DNA from: Rhizobiales bacterium 62-47
Lineage (GTDB): Bacteria; Pseudomonadota; Alphaproteobacteria; Rhizobiales; Xanthobacteraceae
DNA: 64,000 nt
Reading direction: 5' to 3'
Assembly: GCA_001899255.1 (NCBI GenBank)
Contig: MKVX01000018.1
Coordinates: 497,150 to 561,149 of the forward strand
The position numbers and the translations under genes were made by a program. The notes beneath the pieces were generated by a model that searched no databases, had not been told where the DNA came from, and saw only the letters and a list, made by a program, of their open reading frames with translations. Shown in pieces: positions 2,208 to 39,536 of this stretch. Positions within the stretch are counted from its first letter, which is position 1, and each line of letters opens with the position of its first letter.

Positions 2208-3866
2208 TTACTGGATTTTCGGCGGACCGAAATCGAGCGGCGGCATTTCGATTTGCGGCACCTCGATCTTCACCTTGTTCAGATCGACGTTCGATGCCGC
2301 TCCCTTGTAGTGCATCACCATCGAGGGGAACAGAATGACCAGGCCGACCATGACCACCTGAATGATCACGAATGGCACGGCGCCCCAGTAGATCTGGCCG
2401 GTGGTCACCGGCTCCATTCGCTTGCCGGTGACGCGGTCGATGTACGAATCCTTCGGCGCGACCGAGCGCAGGTAGAACAGGGCGAAGCCGAACGGCGGAT
2501 GCATGAAAGACGTCTGCATGTTGACGCCGAGGATGACGCCAAACCAGATCAGATCGATGCCGAGATGCTCCGCCGCCGGTCCGAGCAGCGGAATGATGAT
2601 GAAGGCCAGCTCGAAGAAGTCGAGGAAGAAGGCCAGGAAGAACACGAAGATGTTGACGAAGATCAGGAAGCCGATCTGGCCGCCCGGCAGCGACGTCAGC
2701 AGGTGTTCCACCCAGACGTGACCGTTCACGCCATAGAAGGTCAGCGAGAATACGCGCGCGCCGACCAAAATGAACACCACGAATGCGGAGAGCTTGGCTG
2801 TCGATTCCGCGGCTTGACGGATCAGATCCCATGACAGCCGGCGCTTGGCGGCGCCGAGCAACAGCGCTCCGGTAGCACCCATCGCGCCGCCTTCGGTTGG
2901 CGTCGCAACGCCGATGAAGATGGTGCCGAGCACGAGGAAGATCAGGAACAGCGGCGGCACCATGACGAATGTCGTCTGCTGCGCGATCAGCGACAGGAAA
3001 CGATATCCGGTCAGGCGATGCACGATCCAGTTGAGGACCGCCACGCCGAATGCGAACAGAATGCCGTAGAACATCGAGAAGACGACGAAATCGGCGCCGT
3101 GCGTCGCCGAGTTTCGCATCATCAGCCAAGCGAAGACGACGCTGATCGCGGTCAATACACCGAGCGATAACAGGCCGCGATTGCCGTTCGGCTCGCGAAA
3201 GCCGATGGCTTCAGTCGGCAGCCCAGGCGTGGCTTTCGGGAAGAGCAGCGAAATCAGGAGCACGTAGCCGGCATATAGCGCAGTCAGAACGAGGCCGGGA
3301 ATGAACGCGCCCTCGTACATGTCGCCGACGGAGCGACCGAGCTGGTCGGCCATGACGATCAGCACCAGCGAGGGTGGAATGATCTGGGCCAGCGTGCCTG
3401 ATGCGGCGATGACGCCGCTGGCGACGCGGCGGTCGTAGCCGTAGCGGAGCATGATCGGCAGCGAGATGAGGCCCATGGAGATCACCGACGCCGCGACGAC
3501 GCCGGTGGTTGCCGCCAGCAGCGCGCCGACGAAGATGACAGCATAGGCGAGGCCGCCGCGGATGGTGCCGAACAATTGCCCGATGGTGTCGAGCAGATCC
3601 TCGGCCATACCCGAGCGCTCAAGTACGAGGCCCATGAATGTGAAGAACGGAATCGCTAGCAGGGTGTCATTGTTCATGACCCCGTAGACACGTTCAGGCA
3701 ACGCCTGCAGAAAATTCGGTTGAAACTCGCCGAGTTCGATTCCGATAAAGGCGAAGATCAATCCCACTGCGCCGAGCGAGAATGCCACCGGATAACCGAT
3801 GAGCAGGAACACCACCAGCGCCACGAACATAATCGGCGCCATGTTGGCAATCAGAAATGCTTCCAT
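2208..3866 (-). CDS. dctM: TRAP transporter large permease (DctM family)
   Basis: Inner-membrane ion-coupled transport subunit of the TRAP system. At 552 residues it is longer than the usual 425-450, matching the longer mannitol/chloroaromatic-type subgroup. Many hydrophobic segments are visible, beginning with a VALVVFLLIGYPVAFSLG helix, and there are typical glycine- and proline-rich motifs such as AIPFFTFMGLVLERSGMAEDLL. An SD-like cagggg lies about 7 nt before the ATG. It is 28 bp downstream of dctQ in the same operon. Its C-terminus is a hydrophilic tail after the last membrane helix. Confidence 0.92.
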   Translation of the reverse strand: MEAFLIANMAPIMFVALVVFLLIGYPVAFSLGAVGLIFAFIGIELGEFQPNFLQALPERVYGVMNNDTLLAIPFFTFMGLVLERSGMAEDLLDTIGQLFGTIRGGLAYAVIFVGALLAATTGVVAASVISMGLISLPIMLRYGYDRRVASGVIAASGTLAQIIPPSLVLIVMADQLGRSVGDMYEGAFIPGLVLTALYAGYVLLISLLFPKATPGLPTEAIGFREPNGNRGLLSLGVLTAISVVFAWLMMRNSATHGADFVVFSMFYGILFAFGVAVLNWIVHRLTGYRFLSLIAQQTTFVMVPPLFLIFLVLGTIFIGVATPTEGGAMGATGALLLGAAKRRLSWDLIRQAAESTAKLSAFVVFILVGARVFSLTFYGVNGHVWVEHLLTSLPGGQIGFLIFVNIFVFFLAFFLDFFELAFIIIPLLGPAAEHLGIDLIWFGVILGVNMQTSFMHPPFGFALFYLRSVAPKDSYIDRVTGKRMEPVTTGQIYWGAVPFVIIQVVMVGLVILFPSMVMHYKGAASNVDLNKVKIEVPQIEMPPLDFGPPKIQ

Positions 3867-3894
3867 GTAAACCCCTGAGCCGGACCGGCTCTCC

Positions 3895-4476
3895 TCAATC
3901 TTGCTTCATCGCGTCGACGAGATGCTCAACCTCGGCCTCGAGGCCGGATTTCTGCGACTCGTAGGGGTCTGGGATCAGACCGCGCATTACGGCAATCCGC
4001 TTGATAAGTTCGGACACGCCTTGGATCAGGAGAAGCGCGAAGCCGATCATGATCAGTGATTTGGCCGGCCATTGCGGCAGCCCGCCGGCATTTCCCGACT
4101 GCTCGTTGATGTCATAGGAGCGCAGGAAGAAGGGGACGCTCGTGACGAGCATGACGATCGTAAGTGGCAGCAGGAAAAATGTGTGGCCGAGAACGTCGAT
4201 GAAATCGCGCACGCGCTTCGGCCAGAAGCTGTTGATGATGTCGATGCGGATATGCTCGTTCTTGAGCAGCGTCCACGGTGCGCACAACAGGAATACGATG
4301 CTGAACAGCACCCACTGCATCTCGAGCCACGCGTTCGACGATTCGTCGAACAGCTTGCGTACCGTTGCATTGATACTGGAGATAAAAACCGCGAGCACGA
4401 TAAGCCACGCAAGGTTCTTACCAATCCATGTGTTGATAGCGTCGATCCCCCGACTCAATTTCAGGAGCGATTGCAC
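3895..4476 (-). CDS. dctQ: TRAP transporter small permease (DctQ family)
   Basis: Four-helix membrane partner that joins the DctM transport subunit. The protein is 193 residues with hydrophobic segments near residues 22-40, 57-72, 92-112 and 134-155 and the characteristic WLEMQWVLFSIVFLL motif. The start is GTG at 4476, supported by a strong GGAGG-type SD on the minus strand about 7 nt upstream. It is first in the dctQ-dctM operon; the substrate-binding gene is on the other side of dctM and faces it. Confidence 0.9.
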   Translation of the reverse strand: MQSLLKLSRGIDAINTWIGKNLAWLIVLAVFISSINATVRKLFDESSNAWLEMQWVLFSIVFLLCAPWTLLKNEHIRIDIINSFWPKRVRDFIDVLGHTFFLLPLTIVMLVTSVPFFLRSYDINEQSGNAGGLPQWPAKSLIMIGFALLLIQGVSELIKRIAVMRGLIPDPYESQKSGLEAEVEHLVDAMKQD

Positions 4477-4731
4477 CGTAGCCCTCCTCGGTTAGCTCGC
4501 TTCCGCCGAATTCAGGCGCCTGCCGCATGGTGGCGCTTTTTTATAGCCGGACTGGCGTGAAGCGCCGGCACAATTTCAGCGCATCAAGCCTCCGTCAATT
4601 GGAAGTTTGAGCATATAGCAAAAGGGATTAGCCGAGGAGTCCCCGCGGCGGATGCCTCAAAAAGATGCATCGGCGGAGGTTTTAGTTCGGAGGGAGGCTG
4701 GCTGGTTCTCCCCACGGTCGCGTCGGGAATC

Positions 4732-5763
4732 TCAGCCGCCGGTGACGCTCATGTGGCGGCTGACGCTAGGGCGGTTATGCCGGCGATCGATGATGAAATC
4801 GTGCCCCTTCGGCTTGGTGCCGATGGCGCGGTCGATCGTGGCGTTGAGCAATTCGTTGTCGGTCGACGCCCGCAAGGGTTTGCGGAGGTCGGAGGCATCT
4901 TCATGGCCAAGACAGGTGTGAATCGTCCCGGTGCAGGTGATGCGGACGCGGTTGCAGGATTCACAGAAGTTATGCGTCATCGGCGTGATGAAGCCGAGCT
5001 TGCCGCCGGTCTCACCGACACTGACGTAACGGGCCGGGCCGCCGGTGCTCTCCGGCAGGTCGGCGAGGGTGTAGTTCGCGGCGAGCCGGGTACGCAGCAG
5101 CGACAGCGGCAGGTATTGGTCGATGCGGCCTTCGCCGATATCGCCCATCGGCATGACCTCGATCAGGGTCAGCGTCATGCCTTTACCGTGCGCCCATTCC
5201 ATCAGCGCCGGAATCTCGTCTTCATTGACGTTCTTCAGCGCGACGGCGTTGATCTTCACGGCGATACCGGCGGCCAGCGCCGCTTCGATTCCGTCGAGCA
5301 CCTTGTTGATGTCGCCCCAACGGGTGATCGTCTTGAACTTGGCCGGATCGAGCGTGTCGAGCGAGACGTTGATGCGGCGAACGCCGCAGTCATGCAGTTC
5401 GTTGGCGAAACGGGCGAGCTGCGACCCGTTGGTGGTCAGTGTCAGCTCGTCGAGGGCGCCACTGTCGAGGTGGCGAGACAATGAGCGGATCAGCGACATC
5501 ACGTTGCGCCGGACCAGCGGCTCGCCGCCGGTGAGGCGCAGCTTGCGGACGCCCTTGGCGATGAAGGCCGAACACAGCCGATCCAGCTCTTCCAGCGACA
5601 GCAGATCGGCCTTGGGGAGGAATGTCATGTCCTCCGACATGCAATAGAAGCAGCGGAGATCGCAGCGATCGGTTACCGACACCCGCAGGTAGCTGATCGT
5701 CCGCCCAAACGGATCGATCATCGCTGTGGGGCGAGTTGCGAGGCCGATCGTCGTGTCTGACAT
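4732..5763 (-). CDS. moaA: GTP 3',8-cyclase MoaA (molybdenum cofactor biosynthesis)
   Basis: Radical SAM enzyme that, with MoaC, converts GTP to cyclic pyranopterin monophosphate, the first step of molybdopterin synthesis. The N-terminal SAM cluster motif CDLRCFYC (CxxxCxxC), the [10 protein letters not shown] motif and the second C-terminal cluster FCESCNR with a later TCLG Cys are all present. The chain ends in Gly-Gly, the tail needed for activity. I chose ATG 5763, giving 343 residues as in close relatives; an in-frame ATG at 5805 would add 14 residues. No other moa gene is adjacent. Confidence 0.94.
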
Positions 5764-5871
5764 ATGAAGCCGCTTTGCATTCGTCGCCAGCCTGGCGAAA
5801 TTCATATCCCTGTCTACAGAATGTAGATGTGGCGGCTCCCCGGCACAATCATCCGATGGAACAAATGTCGG

Positions 5872-6354
5872 TCAGCGGGTCGGCGCGGGTGCTGCCGGTG
5901 CGGGTGCGGCGGGCGCCGGCGCAGGGAACGCCGAACCGGCGGCGGCCGGTGCTGCAGCAGCCGGTTTCGGCGCCGGTGGCTTGCGCGGCTTGCGGCGCTG
6001 CTTCTTCGGCGGCTCCGTGGGCTGCAACTCCGCGACAACCGGGTTGGGATCGAACGTCGTTACCGCGGGCGAGGTGAAGTCGCCCGGCAGATGCGTTACC
6101 TGCACGGGGACCGTCAAAGGCTGGTGTTTTGCCAGCGTAAACGTGACATTGAAGCTCTCGGCGCTCTCCGGCACCGAGATAGAACAGGGCGTCTTGCAGC
6201 TCGTGCCAAGGGAACTTGCTGCATCGGCACCGGGCGGGACCGAGTCGACGGGCACCGAGACCATCTTCGGTGTTGGCTTGAAAGAATCCATCGAAACGGA
6301 AGAGCAGCCGGCGAGGCTCAAGCCCGCGACAGCAATCACGATGACATTACGCAT
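5872..6354 (-). CDS. Lipoprotein with Pro/Ala-rich C-terminal tail
   Basis: A 160-residue protein with a lipoprotein signal peptide (lipobox LAGC near residue 17). A small beta-rich region follows (about 30-110), including SVPPGADAASS and LGTSCKTPCSISV, which resemble a PEGA-like envelope domain. The last 50 residues are a basic KKQRRKPRKPP stretch and then almost only Pro and Ala, which could extend through peptidoglycan. Start at 6354 is placed so the signal peptide begins with MRNVIVIAV; the in-frame extension upstream looks non-coding. The function is unknown. Confidence 0.75.
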   Translation of the reverse strand: MRNVIVIAVAGLSLAGCSSVSMDSFKPTPKMVSVPVDSVPPGADAASSLGTSCKTPCSISVPESAESFNVTFTLAKHQPLTVPVQVTHLPGDFTSPAVTTFDPNPVVAELQPTEPPKKQRRKPRKPPAPKPAAAAPAAAGSAFPAPAPAAPAPAAPAPTR

Positions 6355-35215: not shown

Positions 35216-36148
35216 CTACCGCCAGCGGCGGTGCAGCCACAGCCATTGATCGGGGTATTCGCGAATCCAGCCCTCGATCACCGAGGTGATCGCCTGCATC
35301 GTGCCCTGCACGTCGATCTCGCCGCTGGCGTTGCGCACCGGCGGGATTTCTTCCGACAGTTCGGCGCGGAAGCGATGGTTGGGCAGGCGAATGATGCGCA
35401 CGCCATGGATCGGGCATTCGATCTGTCGCAGCAGGCGCGCCAGCGTCGGATTGGCCTTGGTATTGCGGCCGAAGAACGTCACCTCGACGCCGTTGCCGAG
35501 ATACTGATCGACCAGCATGGCGGCGTGCTGGCCGTTCTGCAGCGCCTGCGCCAGCTTGATTGGCGCATCGCGACCGGACGGGATCAAGGTGCCCATATTG
35601 ACCGAGCGCAGTTCTTCGATGGCGCGATCGGCGGAGGCGATGTTCGGTCGCCGGAACAGTACGGCGGTGTCGAGACCATGCGCGACGGCGGCGAGGGCGG
35701 GTAGCTCCCAGTTGCCGAGATGGCTGGCGAAGATCAACGCGGGTTTGCCATCGAGCCGCAACTGGTGAAACAGCTCGTGCGTTCGCTTTGGAATTTCGAT
35801 GCGGCCGCGCTCGGGATGCGCCTCGTCATGGTCCCAGACTTGATCGATGTGGGCGAACTCCGCGGCGAGGCGGCCGAGATTGTCCCACACGCCGGCGAGG
35901 ATTTTTTCGATTTCTTCCGGTGACTTTTCCGGAAACGCCGCCGTAAGGTTGGCGCGGCCGATGCGCTGCTCGCGAAACAGCGGCCCGATGAGCTGCGCGA
36001 TGCGGCCGAACAGATTGGCGGTCTTGATCGGATCGAAATAGCGCGTGGTGCGCAACAGGCCAACGGTCAGCGCGCCGACGGCAGCCGAAGCCAGCGGCTT
36101 GGTCGCATCGCGAAGACTGGCTTTGGCGCGTAGCAGGAAGCGGCGCAT
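35216..36148 (-). CDS. lpxXL: Lipid A acyltransferase, LpxXL-type (LpxL/HtrB family)
   Basis: 310-residue inner-membrane acyltransferase. An N-terminal hydrophobic helix is followed by the HtrB active-site HLGNWE (H-x4-E, about residue 143) and LVDQYLGNGVEVTFFG. Position at the end of the acpXL cluster indicates transfer of the very-long-chain acyl group from AcpXL to lipid A, as shown in Rhizobium. It lies 35 bp downstream of fabF1XL with no adh2XL between them. Confidence 0.88.
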   Translation of the reverse strand: MRRFLLRAKASLRDATKPLASAAVGALTVGLLRTTRYFDPIKTANLFGRIAQLIGPLFREQRIGRANLTAAFPEKSPEEIEKILAGVWDNLGRLAAEFAHIDQVWDHDEAHPERGRIEIPKRTHELFHQLRLDGKPALIFASHLGNWELPALAAVAHGLDTAVLFRRPNIASADRAIEELRSVNMGTLIPSGRDAPIKLAQALQNGQHAAMLVDQYLGNGVEVTFFGRNTKANPTLARLLRQIECPIHGVRIIRLPNHRFRAELSEEIPPVRNASGEIDVQGTMQAITSVIEGWIREYPDQWLWLHRRWR

Positions 36149-36183
36149 CAGGACGTCATGACAATTGGGCCAATGCCTGCCGT

Positions 36184-37464
36184 CTAGATCGGTTCGCCGG
36201 TCAGGATCAGCGAAGCATTCTGGCCGCCGAAGCCGAACGAATTCGACATCACCGTGGTAACGCGCGCGTCGCGGGCGGTGTTCGGCACCACGTCGAACGG
36301 AATGGCCGGATCGGGCACATCATAGTTGATGGTGGGCGGAATGCGCTGATGTTCGAGCGTCAGCAGCGAAAACACCGCTTCGACCGCACCGGCGGCGGAC
36401 AGTGTGTGACCGACCATCGACTTGTTCGACGACACCGGAACCTCGCGCGCACGCTCGCCGAATACAGTCGAGATACCGAGATATTCCATCTTGTCGTTTT
36501 CCGGCGTGCCGGTGCCGTGCGCGTTGATGTAGTCGATCTGGTCGGCGACGATGCCGGCATCGGACAGCGCGTTACGGACGCAGCCGATGATCGGCTTGCC
36601 GTCCGGGCTCGAGCGCGTGCGGTGGAAGGAGTCCGCCAGTTCGCCACAACCGGCCAGCACGCCGAGAATGCGTGCGCCGCGTGCGGTGGCGGATTCGAGG
36701 CTCTCCAGCACCAAGGCGCCGGCGCCTTCCGCCATCACGAAGCCATCGCGGTTCTTGGCGAACGGCTTGACGGCGGAGTGCGGCGGATCGTTCTGCGTCG
36801 ACAGCGCCGATAGCAGCGAGAAACGGATCAGGGCTTCCGGATTGACCGAGCCGTCGGTCGCGACGCACAGCGCGGCATCGGCCTCGCCACGGCGGATCGC
36901 TTCGACGCCAAGCTGAATCGCGGTTGCGCCCGAAGCGCACGCAGTCGAGAGCGAAATCGGCGAGCCCTTGGTCCCGAAGGTTTCGGCGAGATGATCCGCC
37001 ACTGACCCGAACAGGAAGCGCCGATGATAGGGCGCGAACTTGCCGCCGCCGGAGACGCGCAGCATCTCGTCGTAGTTGATCTCGGTCTGGTTGCCGATGG
37101 CGCGGCCGAGTTCCTGACGCTGCGGCCATTCGACTTCGACCGGCGCGACGGCAAGAAACAGCGGGCCCGGAAAATCGCCTTTGCTGCCGATCGCGGACTG
37201 CGCGATGGCTTCTTCGGTCGCCAAGTCGGCCAGCCGCTCGGAAAGATCGGTCGAGGAGAATGGCTCAACCGGCACGAAGTCGATGGCGCCGGCCATCGTC
37301 GTTTTCAGGCCATCGGTGGGAAAGCGCTTGATGGTGCGGATGCCGGATTCTCCGGCGCAGAGTTTCGCCCAGTTGTCGGCTTTGCCTGCGCCCAGCGACG
37401 TCACCACACCCATGCCGGTGACGACGACGATCGGCCTGCCGAATTTATCGCGGGTTGCTGACAT
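36184..37464 (-). CDS. fabF1XL: Beta-ketoacyl-ACP synthase II type, FabF1XL
   Basis: 426-residue condensing enzyme. The catalytic triad is complete: Cys176 in STACASGATAI, His in INAHGTGTPEND and His in SMVGHTLSAAGA. In Rhizobium the corresponding gene is needed to extend acyl chains on AcpXL towards C28. It lies in a one-direction cluster with acpXL, fabZ-like, the paralogue FabF2XL, and lpxXL; spacing to FabF2XL is 111 bp. Confidence 0.92.
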   Translation of the reverse strand: MSATRDKFGRPIVVVTGMGVVTSLGAGKADNWAKLCAGESGIRTIKRFPTDGLKTTMAGAIDFVPVEPFSSTDLSERLADLATEEAIAQSAIGSKGDFPGPLFLAVAPVEVEWPQRQELGRAIGNQTEINYDEMLRVSGGGKFAPYHRRFLFGSVADHLAETFGTKGSPISLSTACASGATAIQLGVEAIRRGEADAALCVATDGSVNPEALIRFSLLSALSTQNDPPHSAVKPFAKNRDGFVMAEGAGALVLESLESATARGARILGVLAGCGELADSFHRTRSSPDGKPIIGCVRNALSDAGIVADQIDYINAHGTGTPENDKMEYLGISTVFGERAREVPVSSNKSMVGHTLSAAGAVEAVFSLLTLEHQRIPPTINYDVPDPAIPFDVVPNTARDARVTTVMSNSFGFGGQNASLILTGEPI

Positions 37465-37575: not shown

Positions 37576-38781
37576 TCAGCGGATAGCTTCGACCAGCGCC
37601 ATGCCTTCGCCGCGCCAGTGTCCGGCCCCGATCACCACTATCTGGGACGGCGGCTTGGCCATTTCAATCTCTACGCCGCTGGAATCGTTCGGTGCGAACA
37701 GCTTGCCGCGCGAGATCGACAGCGCTGCGAGCGCCAGCCCCAGCGGGAATTGCGTTTCCATGGTGTGACCGAACGTCGTGCCGGTTGCACGCACGGCAAA
37801 ATCGGGATGCTTCGCGAGGAAGGCGCGTTCCTCCGAGGTGGCGGGTTCGGCACCGGTCGCGCCGGTGATGATCGCGCCGTTGGCATCGAGCTTGCCGAGT
37901 TTCGACCACAGTGTTTCCAGCGATGCGGTGACGTCGCCAGCCTGTTTGCGGCGCGCCTGGTCGGCAACGACGTTGGTCAGCCGCGCATAAGGCTTCGCGC
38001 CGCGCGCTTCGGCGTGCTTGCGCGATTCGATGACGAGGAATGCGCCGCCGGAGCCGAGCGCAAAGCCGCCGTGTTCGCCGCGCGCCCACACCGGAGCAAA
38101 CTTGCCCTTGAGGTTGAAGTCGCCGAATTCGTAAAGCACCAGCAGATCCTTGCGCTCGCCGTTGTGCGCGGCGCCGATCAAGGCAATGTCGCTTTGACCG
38201 GCGGCGATGCGCGCCAGCGCGATGCGCGCGGCATCGACGCCCGCGGCTTCCTCGCCCATGAAGGTGCGCGACGATCCAGTGACGCCATGGACGATGGCAA
38301 TATTGCCGGCGAGCAGGTTGGAGAGTTGGGCAAGGAACAACGTCGGCCGCAGGTCGCTCATCAGCCGTTCGTTGAGGAAGCCAGGCGCCGAGTTGCCCTG
38401 CGCTTCGGCATTCAGGATGGCCGAATCGACCGCCAGGTCGCGCTCGCCGCCGCCCGCGGCGACGATCATGTCCATCCGGGCGAGAATGTCCTTGTTGCCC
38501 TTGATGCCGGCGGAATCCAGCGCCAACCCGGCAGCATAGGTGCCGATGCGCTGCCACGCTTCCATCTGCCGTTGGTCGCCCTTTTTGGGAATCTGGGCAT
38601 CGAAGCTGACCGGCGCCAACGGATGCACGATGTAGGGAGCAAAGCTCTTTTCATCGACGTTGATGCGGCGCTGCTCCAGCCCCTCCCAGTTGGCGTCGAG
38701 GTTGTCGCTGAGCGATGTCGCGAGACCGATGCCGGTGATCCAGGCTTCTGCGGCGTCGTTCGATGTCTTGGACTCGCTCAT
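37576..38781 (-). CDS. fabF2XL: FabF2XL-type beta-ketoacyl-ACP synthase paralogue lacking the catalytic Cys
   Basis: 401-residue thiolase-fold protein, second ketosynthase of the acpXL cluster. Where the active Cys is expected, the sequence reads HGVTGSSRTFMGEE (about 166-179), with Ser in place of Cys, and the first active-site His region reads ITGATGAEPA rather than NAHGTGT. A second His (FGHTMETQF) remains. The family is known from Rhizobium; the missing residues suggest a non-condensing partner, comparable to a chain-length factor, which is inference. The stop overlaps no gene; the start overlaps the fabZ-like gene by 4 bp. Confidence 0.88.
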   Translation of the reverse strand: MSESKTSNDAAEAWITGIGLATSLSDNLDANWEGLEQRRINVDEKSFAPYIVHPLAPVSFDAQIPKKGDQRQMEAWQRIGTYAAGLALDSAGIKGNKDILARMDMIVAAGGGERDLAVDSAILNAEAQGNSAPGFLNERLMSDLRPTLFLAQLSNLLAGNIAIVHGVTGSSRTFMGEEAAGVDAARIALARIAAGQSDIALIGAAHNGERKDLLVLYEFGDFNLKGKFAPVWARGEHGGFALGSGGAFLVIESRKHAEARGAKPYARLTNVVADQARRKQAGDVTASLETLWSKLGKLDANGAIITGATGAEPATSEERAFLAKHPDFAVRATGTTFGHTMETQFPLGLALAALSISRGKLFAPNDSSGVEIEMAKPPSQIVVIGAGHWRGEGMALVEAIR

Positions 38782-39245
38782 GAGGACGCCTGCTGTGGAT
38801 AGCCGATGCGCTTGGCCATGGCTTCCATGTGCCCGCGCAGGTCAGGATTGGGAAAGGGGACGTGACGGAAGGTCAGCGTCGCATTGCAGGTCAATTTGCC
38901 GCCGACGCTGATTTTCGCGTCGGTCATGGCAAAGCCCGAACCCTCGTGGGCGATGGCAGCTTCGATGGTCAGCGTTTCGCCGGGCGTCACGAAGGTGCGC
39001 ATCTTGGCTTCCTTGACGGCGGCCAGGAACGGCATGCGCTCGAAGTTCAACAGCGAGATCAGCAGCCAGCCCGAGGTCTGTGCCATCGCCTCGATCAGCA
39101 GCACTCCCGGCATCAGGGGATAACCCGGGAAATGCCCCTCGAAGATCGTGCTCTGCTGCGGAACACGCGCTTCGACCGTGATGCTACGGGAGCCGGGATC
39201 GAGAGCGATGATGCGGTCGATGAGTTGAAAATATTCGAGCTGCAT
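38778..39245 (-). CDS. fabZXL: 3-hydroxyacyl-ACP dehydratase (FabZ-like), fabZXL
   Basis: 155-residue hot-dog fold protein. The FabZ motif FEGHFPGYPLMPGVLLIEAMAQTSGW contains the catalytic His and Glu. It dehydrates the 3-hydroxyacyl-AcpXL intermediates in each elongation round. It starts 9 bp after the acpXL stop and overlaps the fabF2XL start by 4 bp, so translation is probably coupled. Confidence 0.93.
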   Translation of the reverse strand: MQLEYFQLIDRIIALDPGSRSITVEARVPQQSTIFEGHFPGYPLMPGVLLIEAMAQTSGWLLISLLNFERMPFLAAVKEAKMRTFVTPGETLTIEAAIAHEGSGFAMTDAKISVGGKLTCNATLTFRHVPFPNPDLRGHMEAMAKRIGYPQQASS

Positions 39246-39254
39246 CGGCGGCGA

Positions 39255-39536
39255 TTACTCGCCCTTGGCGGCGACCAACTCGTCGATTCGCGCGCTCAGG
39301 TTCTTCAGCACGAAGTACTGTTCGGTGGTGGCCTTGCCGTCGTTGACTTCCTGCGTCCATTTTTCGAGCGGCAGCTTGATGCCAAAGGCTTTATCGATCG
39401 CGAAGGCAATATCCAGGAAGTCCAGGCTGTCGATGCCCAGATCGTCGATGGCATGGCTTTCGGGCGTGATCGTATCCCGCGGGATGTCGCAGGTTTCCGC
39501 AATGATGGTGGCAACCTGATCGAATGTGGATGACAT
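39255..39536 (-). CDS. acpXL: Acyl carrier protein AcpXL for very-long-chain fatty acids
   Basis: 93-residue specialised acyl carrier protein. The phosphopantetheine attachment site is [10 protein letters not shown] (Ser37). [24 protein letters not shown] and [20 protein letters not shown] follow the AcpXL sequence of Rhizobium closely. The chain is longer than standard ACP (about 78). Start at 39536 (MSSTFDQ) rather than the adjacent ATG 39539, giving a better distance to the aaggg SD. First gene of the cluster. Confidence 0.94.

Follow-up and report, generated by a model that had tools for sequence, protein, structure and literature searches.

The fabF2XL locus and its gene cluster

The window, that is the whole stretch of 64,000 nucleotides that was analysed, carries on its minus strand five genes in the order acpXL-fabZXL-fabF2XL-fabF1XL-lpxXL. 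Below, F2 and F1 stand for FabF2XL and FabF1XL, KS for ketosynthase and CLF for chain-length factor. The genes and the positions within F2 to which we refer are:

39255..39536, minus strand: acpXL, dedicated acyl carrier protein (NF005079, 180 bits; start codon by inspection)
38778..39245, minus strand: fabZXL, dehydratase, with 4 bases shared between its stop and the F2 start
37576..38781, minus strand: fabF2XL (F2), 401 codons, KS homologue whose active site is degenerate, a proposed CLF-like subunit
38317..38349, minus strand: F2 residues 145-155 (RPTLFLAQLSN), within the FabF-like segment retained in F2
38248..38250, minus strand: codon of F2 Glu178, which stands where the nucleophile Cys would be (coordinates derived from the residue number)
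37765..37767, minus strand: codon of F2 His339, the one member of Cys-His-Lys-His that F2 retains (coordinates likewise derived)
36184..37464, minus strand: fabF1XL (F1), KS with intact C176-H316-K348-H353 and GFGG; segment 135-155 not FabF-like
35216..36148, minus strand: lpxXL, lipid A acyltransferase of the acpXL cluster (NF005120, 458 bits)

F2 scored 630 bits against NF005084/PRK06519, above the curated cut-off of 320, and 48 bits against Pfam ketoacyl-synt; the Pfam search gave no F2 match to Ketoacyl-synt_C at E<=1e-3. F1 scored 784 bits against NF005076. The NCBIfam model expected for the cluster was thus passed by four of the five proteins (F2, F1, AcpXL and LpxXL), and FabZXL matched FabZ models with scores under their cut-offs. 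Position also places F2 in the FabF2XL group, its gene lying between fabZXL and fabF1XL in the acpXL cluster. The genome harbouring the window measures 4.9 Mb in 23 contigs, and the highest-scoring F2 matches in named genomes, among the best 80 of 515, come from Hyphomicrobiales MAGs, Bradyrhizobium and Nitrobacter.

Only 35 bases (36149-36183) separate fabF1XL from lpxXL, so that adh2XL is absent between them. Bradyrhizobium ORS278 likewise has no adh2XL at this place, according to excerpts of PMC5613085. Two other loci, L085 and L090, have about 1.1 kb at this gap.

Loss of the active site in FabF2XL

F2 and F1 from loci of two genome sets, one named and one unnamed, which may overlap, were aligned together with FabFs, and the residues in the four catalytic columns were recorded. 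The 100 F2 rows represent 99 distinct sequences and the 98 F1 rows represent 97, the genome of the window being counted twice in each (in the F2 set also as L091). Row L036 of F2 is cut at a contig end and the short rows L109 and L111 were dropped; for F1, short rows L050 and L111 were dropped and the contigs of L036 and L109 carry no F1.

The column of the nucleophile Cys holds Glu in 100/100 F2 rows. The sequence-only reading had placed a Ser there, which must be corrected: in MAFFT and HMMER alignments alike the FabF Cys falls on Glu178 of the window's F2 (...RTFMGEE178AAG...), and HMMER against PDB sequences aligned E. coli FabF Cys163 to the same residue. The rest of that description agrees with the alignments. 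The catalytic Cys and the first His are both absent from all 100 rows, the His being replaced by Ala (98 rows), Thr (1) or Ser (1), or, in a second alignment shifted by one column, by Gly or Ala. The NAHGTGT motif is indeed replaced and reads IITGATGA, and the neighbour F1 keeps all catalytic residues (C176, H316, K348, H353, together with GFGG), the Cys, His, Lys and His being present in 98/98 F1 rows. Three features go beyond the earlier description: the catalytic Lys is also lost in every F2 row (Gly 88, Ala 12), the second His is retained in 99/100 (Gln in the remaining one) and GFGG is changed to GHxRGEG or variants. In FabF this loop contributes to the oxyanion hole and carries the gating Phe400 (excerpts of PMC7138838).

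F2 therefore lacks what an active FabF/KASII has, namely the nucleophile Cys, the two His with Lys and the GFGG loop. This state is not due to chance, since rows as distant as 42% identity share it, as do the four second copies described below. F2 is a KS homologue with a lost active site.

The model of F2, built on 42 close rows (76-88% identical), reached pLDDT 61.2 and pTM 0.71, which recognises a fold and is too weak for side chains; stretches 110-117, 158-177, 335-340 and 388-392 lie below pLDDT 50. Compared with KSs, it gave TM of about 0.53-0.60 and rmsd of about 9-10 A with Foldseek, and Z of 25.9-27.2 and rmsd of 3.8-5.7 A over 305-333 residues with VIA. The AntE chain 6smo_E was second in the Foldseek ranking, FabF and other KSs scoring similarly, and neither Foldseek nor VIA singled out CLFs for the model. 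The model thus suggests, at low confidence, a KS fold for F2. A co-fold of F2 with F1, which lies in frame 439 codons after the F2 start and was reached by reading through with stops as Ser (25 rows), was uninformative (pLDDT 44.8, pTM 0.40).

A KS fold deprived of its Cys might serve as a KSQ-type malonyl-ACP decarboxylase, priming or balancing the pathway. The Cys is replaced in KSQ domains too, as in many CLFs, and the F2 model matches the KSQ structures 7uwr and 8in9 at VIA Z of about 26, no better than it matches other KSs. Decarboxylation by a KS fold probably uses both His, and a KSQ decarboxylase is recognised by a Gln in place of the Cys and by retention of the two His. F2 instead has Glu at this site, and first His and Lys are lost in 100/100 rows. 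We consequently dropped this candidate as very improbable.

Certain residues are strictly conserved in spite of the dead site. Invariant in 19 diverse F2 sequences are E113, R114, D115, D119, R145, P146, T147, E177 and E178, and further R191, R210, R278, E318, H339, E342 and E392. Apart from P146 and T147, these residues (E113-R114-D115 in a row) could form a new active site, in which case F2 would be a KS fold with a new chemistry, e.g. the hand-over of acyl-AcpXL or a reaction at the omega-1 end. Most of the positions are not common to F1 or FabF, and the second His, retained almost throughout, need not be kept by a pure scaffold. However, no known enzyme pattern was recognised among them, they could instead plug the dead pocket with salt bridges, and a model of pLDDT 61 is too weak for measuring distances between them. 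We regard a new chemistry as unlikely.

Phylogeny was examined with a quick tree, in which F2 forms one clade (100, starred) on a long branch. Its grouping with CLFs had a support of 87, unstarred, and neither F2+F1 (p-AU 0.335) nor F2+FabF (p-AU 0.425) was rejected. Because the tree leaves the sister group unplaced, we call F2 neither a duplicate of F1 nor a true CLF.

FabF1XL and FabF2XL as a pair

Co-occurrence of the two genes was surveyed at three levels. Within the family (218 genomes; F2 called at E<=1e-60, F1 at E<=1e-160), both were present in 206 genomes and neither in 7. F1 was found alone in three genomes (G501, G544, G601) and F2 alone in two (G502, G549), all five being drafts of 430-950 contigs and 72-93% complete. 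Within the class (387 genomes; F2 by cut-off, F1 at E<=1e-170), F2 passed the threshold in 20 genomes, F1 in 20 and both in 19; the two exceptions are G353, where F1 is accompanied by a split F2, and G191, in which F2 lies at a contig edge and F1 is missing. In the phylum survey F2 (E<=1e-30) occurred in 44 of 397 genomes, all 44 marked as the window's own family, order or class, the number of the 397 from other classes being unspecified.

Simple decay of F2 was considered and rejected: there is no internal stop among the F2 matches listed, and F2 is kept in two genomes of only 1.5-1.6 Mb found in the phylum survey. In one draft genome (G353:C16:19860-21046) F2 is split over two reading frames and F1 is kept, either by a sequencing error or by a real break.

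F2 evolves faster than F1 (mean pairwise difference of 0.51 vs 0.38 for 20 pairs). The distances of F1 and F2 in these pairs correlate at 0.93, which we do not count as evidence since shared ancestry accounts for it.

The pair also occurs outside the cluster. A tblastn search of plasmids with F1 revealed on a conjugative Bradyrhizobium plasmid (L146) a second pair, F2b at 3757-4947 and F1b at 5007-6278, and L180 (G468) and L181 (G573) have the same arrangement. In these three loci the second pair stands directly after a SAM-dependent methyltransferase gene (L146:3023-6278, L180:5091-8352, L181:5723-9031), and its product is perhaps a second very-long or methyl-branched acid. A third, more distant pair (L186; G430:C3:668062-669240 with the adjoining F1) is 53% (F2) and 66% (F1) identical to that of the window. 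By tblastn, acpXL, fabZXL and lpxXL are absent from 11-14 kb of L146, L180 and L181 and from 4.2 kb of L186. All four second copies keep the Glu in F2 and the full catalytic set in F1. Those of L146, L180 and L181 branch at corresponding points of the F2 clade and the F1 clade (99 and 99, starred); for L186 such a correspondence is not clear (83 and 90, unstarred). G390, in turn, has two F2, each with acpXL and fabZXL, on draft contigs, so that the whole cluster is probably present twice there. Since the pair has been duplicated and relocated without its carrier protein, it behaves as one functional unit.

The genetics of the acpXL-lpxXL cluster is known from Agrobacterium (PMC11901934), Sinorhizobium (PMC5539429) and Bradyrhizobium (PMC5613085), the statements here being taken from excerpts of these papers. 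An insertion in fabF2XL of A. fabrum resulted in lipid A without the very-long-chain acid, and fabF2XL alone partly restored it (PMC11901934); the partial character of this restoration may come from polar effects on fabF1XL, which is on the same transcript. Mutants of acpXL, fabZXL, fabF1XL and fabF2XL were unobtainable in Bradyrhizobium ORS278 (PMC5613085), and in S. meliloti mutations in the genes of the cluster (acpXL excepted, fabF1XL and fabF2XL included) put the bacterium at a growth disadvantage in the medium employed (PMC5539429). As the active site of F2 is dead, membership of F2 in the F1 enzyme accounts best for this genetic need. In the portions of the literature searched under the name fabF2XL, the gene is called a cluster gene, a fatty acid elongation protein or a beta-ketoacyl-ACP synthase; these portions mention neither the missing FabF2XL residues nor a FabF1XL-FabF2XL heterodimer, although Sinorhizobium or Rhizobium papers may contain an earlier mention. 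Likewise, the main text of PMC11901934 contains none of the terms catalytic, cysteine, heterodimer or chain length.

A FabF-like segment and the proposed heterodimer

We followed FabF-likeness, i.e. identity to FabF, along the chains of F2 and F1. Overall identity to FabF is 0.20 for F2 and 0.35 for F1. At 135-155 (numbering of the FabF of the window's genome; E. coli ...SPFFVPSTIVNMVAGHLTI...), F2 nevertheless lies above F1 by 0.30, the largest difference of any scanned stretch. This segment presumably also faces the acyl pocket of the partner subunit. It holds the FabF-ACP contacts Ser130, Pro131 and Phe132 and their neighbours (PMC7138838, section 7), and most FabF-ACP contacts are supplied by the other monomer, the one without the ACP crosslink (PMC7138838, Figure 3 legend; both from excerpts).

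Eleven of the FabF contact residues given in that section, in the excerpts, could be mapped onto 20 F2 and 20 F1. Arg68 (R71 of F2) and Pro131 (P146 of F2) are kept in 20/20 F2, vs 0/20 and 1/20 F1, respectively. Ile129 is Leu in F2, and Lys65, Lys69, Arg127, Lys128, Ser130, Phe132, Ala205 and Arg206 are mostly changed. With 2/11 contacts exact, a docking face kept by F2 is only partly borne out. From these sequences, F2 appears to keep some of what serves the active site of a partner, and F1 what serves its own.

The first correlation of the F2 and F1 profiles was borderline, being reached by 20/381 shifts. A contrast over region 56-158, picked after viewing the F2-F1 profile, was not significant in classical CLF/KSalpha pairs (84/421 shifts), and two fused pairs (L204, L207) showed the reciprocal pattern in this region with a difference of 0.216, reached by 4/421 shifts. 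As segment 135-155 was first noticed in the F2-F1 profile, its use for this pair is post hoc.

We then compared known KSs by a segment ratio, the identity to FabF in 135-155 relative to the rest of the chain. Aligned were nine KSalpha-CLF pairs (seven of the CLFs annotated as such), three fused proteins, 15 FabF, five FabB, two NodE and three single KSs. FabB and NodE are taken here to be homodimers, and the single KSs are predicted homodimers from the absence of a KS-like neighbour; L228 was placed among the latter as its neighbour gave no KS match. The fused proteins (L204:2447-4810, L207:2486-4780 and L230:2447-4816), on Streptomyces and Pseudalkalibacillus plasmids, have a dead second half, from which we labelled them 'fused KS-CLF-like'. 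Two further KS homologues, in which Ala occupies the Cys site (L204:1126-2412, L230:1132-2418; ratios 0.69-0.70), adjoin such fused genes and were excluded from both sets. A Rahnella plasmid carries an unannotated frame (L145:4022-6567) with a KS and a second KS-like part and an apparent frame shift, followed by a further KS-like gene (L145:6575-7792) with Ser at the Cys site.

The ratio was low in live KSs with a dead partner: 0.11-0.58 in F1 (20 sequences), 0.19-0.62 in KSalpha (9), 0.19-0.24 in the KS of fused proteins (3) and 0.41 in two KSs adjoining a KS relict. It was 1.11-1.50 in FabF, 0.68-0.88 in FabB, 0.68-0.84 in NodE and 0.96-1.05 in single KSs. Among dead partners it reached 1.70-2.25 in F2 (20), 1.29-1.60 in the fused halves and 0.74-0.99 in CLFs. 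There were exceptions: the Rahnella KS beside a KS relict, at 0.67, stands next to the lowest comparison value (0.68), and classical CLFs (0.74-0.99) as well as the short L215 relict (0.90) are no higher than homodimers. These values are to be read within a set of few and related comparators, with FabF as the yardstick.

A scan of all windows was performed without F1 and F2 and with FabF excluded from the comparison set (12 heterodimeric-type KSs vs 10 others). The five best separating windows started at 128-136 (length 15), 130-135 (length 21) and 124-131 (length 27). The known heterodimers alone therefore single out segment 135-155. Similarly, the largest dead-minus-live differences start at 136-151 in known pairs and at 138-147 for F2 minus F1, and the two profiles correlate at 0.60-0.67. 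F1 lies under all 10 non-FabF comparison KSs in 42/311 windows, so that this test alone is not specific.

These data also bear on the possibility that F1 is a homodimer and F2 stands outside the condensing dimer, helping as a separate factor to dock or assemble AcpXL, FabZXL or LpxXL. No F1-F2 complex has been seen, and the two ACP contacts kept in F2, R71 and P146 (FabF R68 and P131), would suit such a factor. However, the pairs were duplicated without the other cluster genes, and F1 has lost a segment that is better kept by FabB, NodE and the single KSs, which makes a separate factor improbable, marginally more so than a new chemistry.

We instead favour, with a probability of roughly 0.7, a KS/CLF-like heterodimer of F1 and F2 that would extend an AcpXL-bound acyl chain until it becomes the very-long-chain (omega-1)-hydroxy acid found in lipid A. 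The sequence-only reading had supposed that the two proteins may work like a ketosynthase and a chain-length factor and so determine how long the very-long-chain acid becomes. The live KS with a dead partner in this supposition is well supported at the level of sequences by the residue pattern, the co-occurrence, the paired duplication and a reciprocal segment signature common to KS-CLF-type enzymes. The heterodimer itself, a tunnel crossing its interface and the control of chain length are our inferences from this arrangement.

In this scheme F1 would do the chemistry, Cys176 holding the acyl chain and His316, His353 and Lys348 serving malonyl-ACP decarboxylation and condensation. F2 would carry out no condensation; it would supply in trans the segment adjoining the acyl pocket of F1 and part of the ACP docking face, and this segment could make possible a longer tunnel across the dimer interface. 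In KS/CLF enzymes the number of extensions is attributed mainly to a channel at the dimer interface (excerpt of PMC12664062), and in one KS-CLF-ACP structure the ACP is mainly on the CLF (excerpt of PMC8358021). By analogy, it is plausible that F2 sets the chain length.

A wider proposal, which we put forward tentatively, would see in F1-F2 a KS-CLF elongase of ordinary fatty-acid synthesis that evolved apart from polyketide CLFs, has an invariant Glu in its dead site and makes the C26-C30 acid of lipid A by means of an interface tunnel, and would hold in addition that there is a general split, in which the live half loses the segment serving the partner and the dead half keeps it, so that sequence alone would distinguish heterodimeric from homodimeric KSs. 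If F2 is CLF-like, control of the length of the very-long-chain lipid A acid in rhizobia and their relatives becomes directly testable, and a sequence rule for heterodimeric KSs would aid annotation of orphan gene clusters.

Comparison with known systems

By curated model and gene order, F2 of the window is the orthologue of FabF2XL (NF005084/PRK06519) of the rhizobial acpXL-lpxXL cluster. With FabF/KASII, which gave the best PDB sequence matches, it shares the full-length fold, whereas the catalytic Cys, the first His, Lys and the GFGG loop are absent. The fused KS-CLF-like didomains (L204, L207, L230) differ in being one chain, with the KS first, and have other active-site remnants than F2.

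Like CLFs, F2 is a Cys-less KS fold beside a live KS, the fold being read from the model of pLDDT 61 and from sequence matches. Its active-site remnants are unlike theirs. In the nine CLFs, from plasmid clusters, the Cys site holds Gln (7), His (1) or Lys (1), in contrast to Glu in F2; Lys is kept in 9/9 and Arg stands at the second His in 8/9, whereas F2 has lost Lys and kept this His. As these remnants are the reverse of those of F2, we propose a similar working and not membership among CLFs.

The KS-CLF heterodimers (actinorhodin 1TQY, AntDE 6SMO and ApeO-ApeC) make polyketides, whereas F1/F2 serves a fatty acid of lipid A. They likewise consist of a live KS and a dead homologue side by side, the dead partner being without Cys as in F2, and, as in F1/F2, the FabF-like segment is gone from the live partner and better preserved in the dead one.
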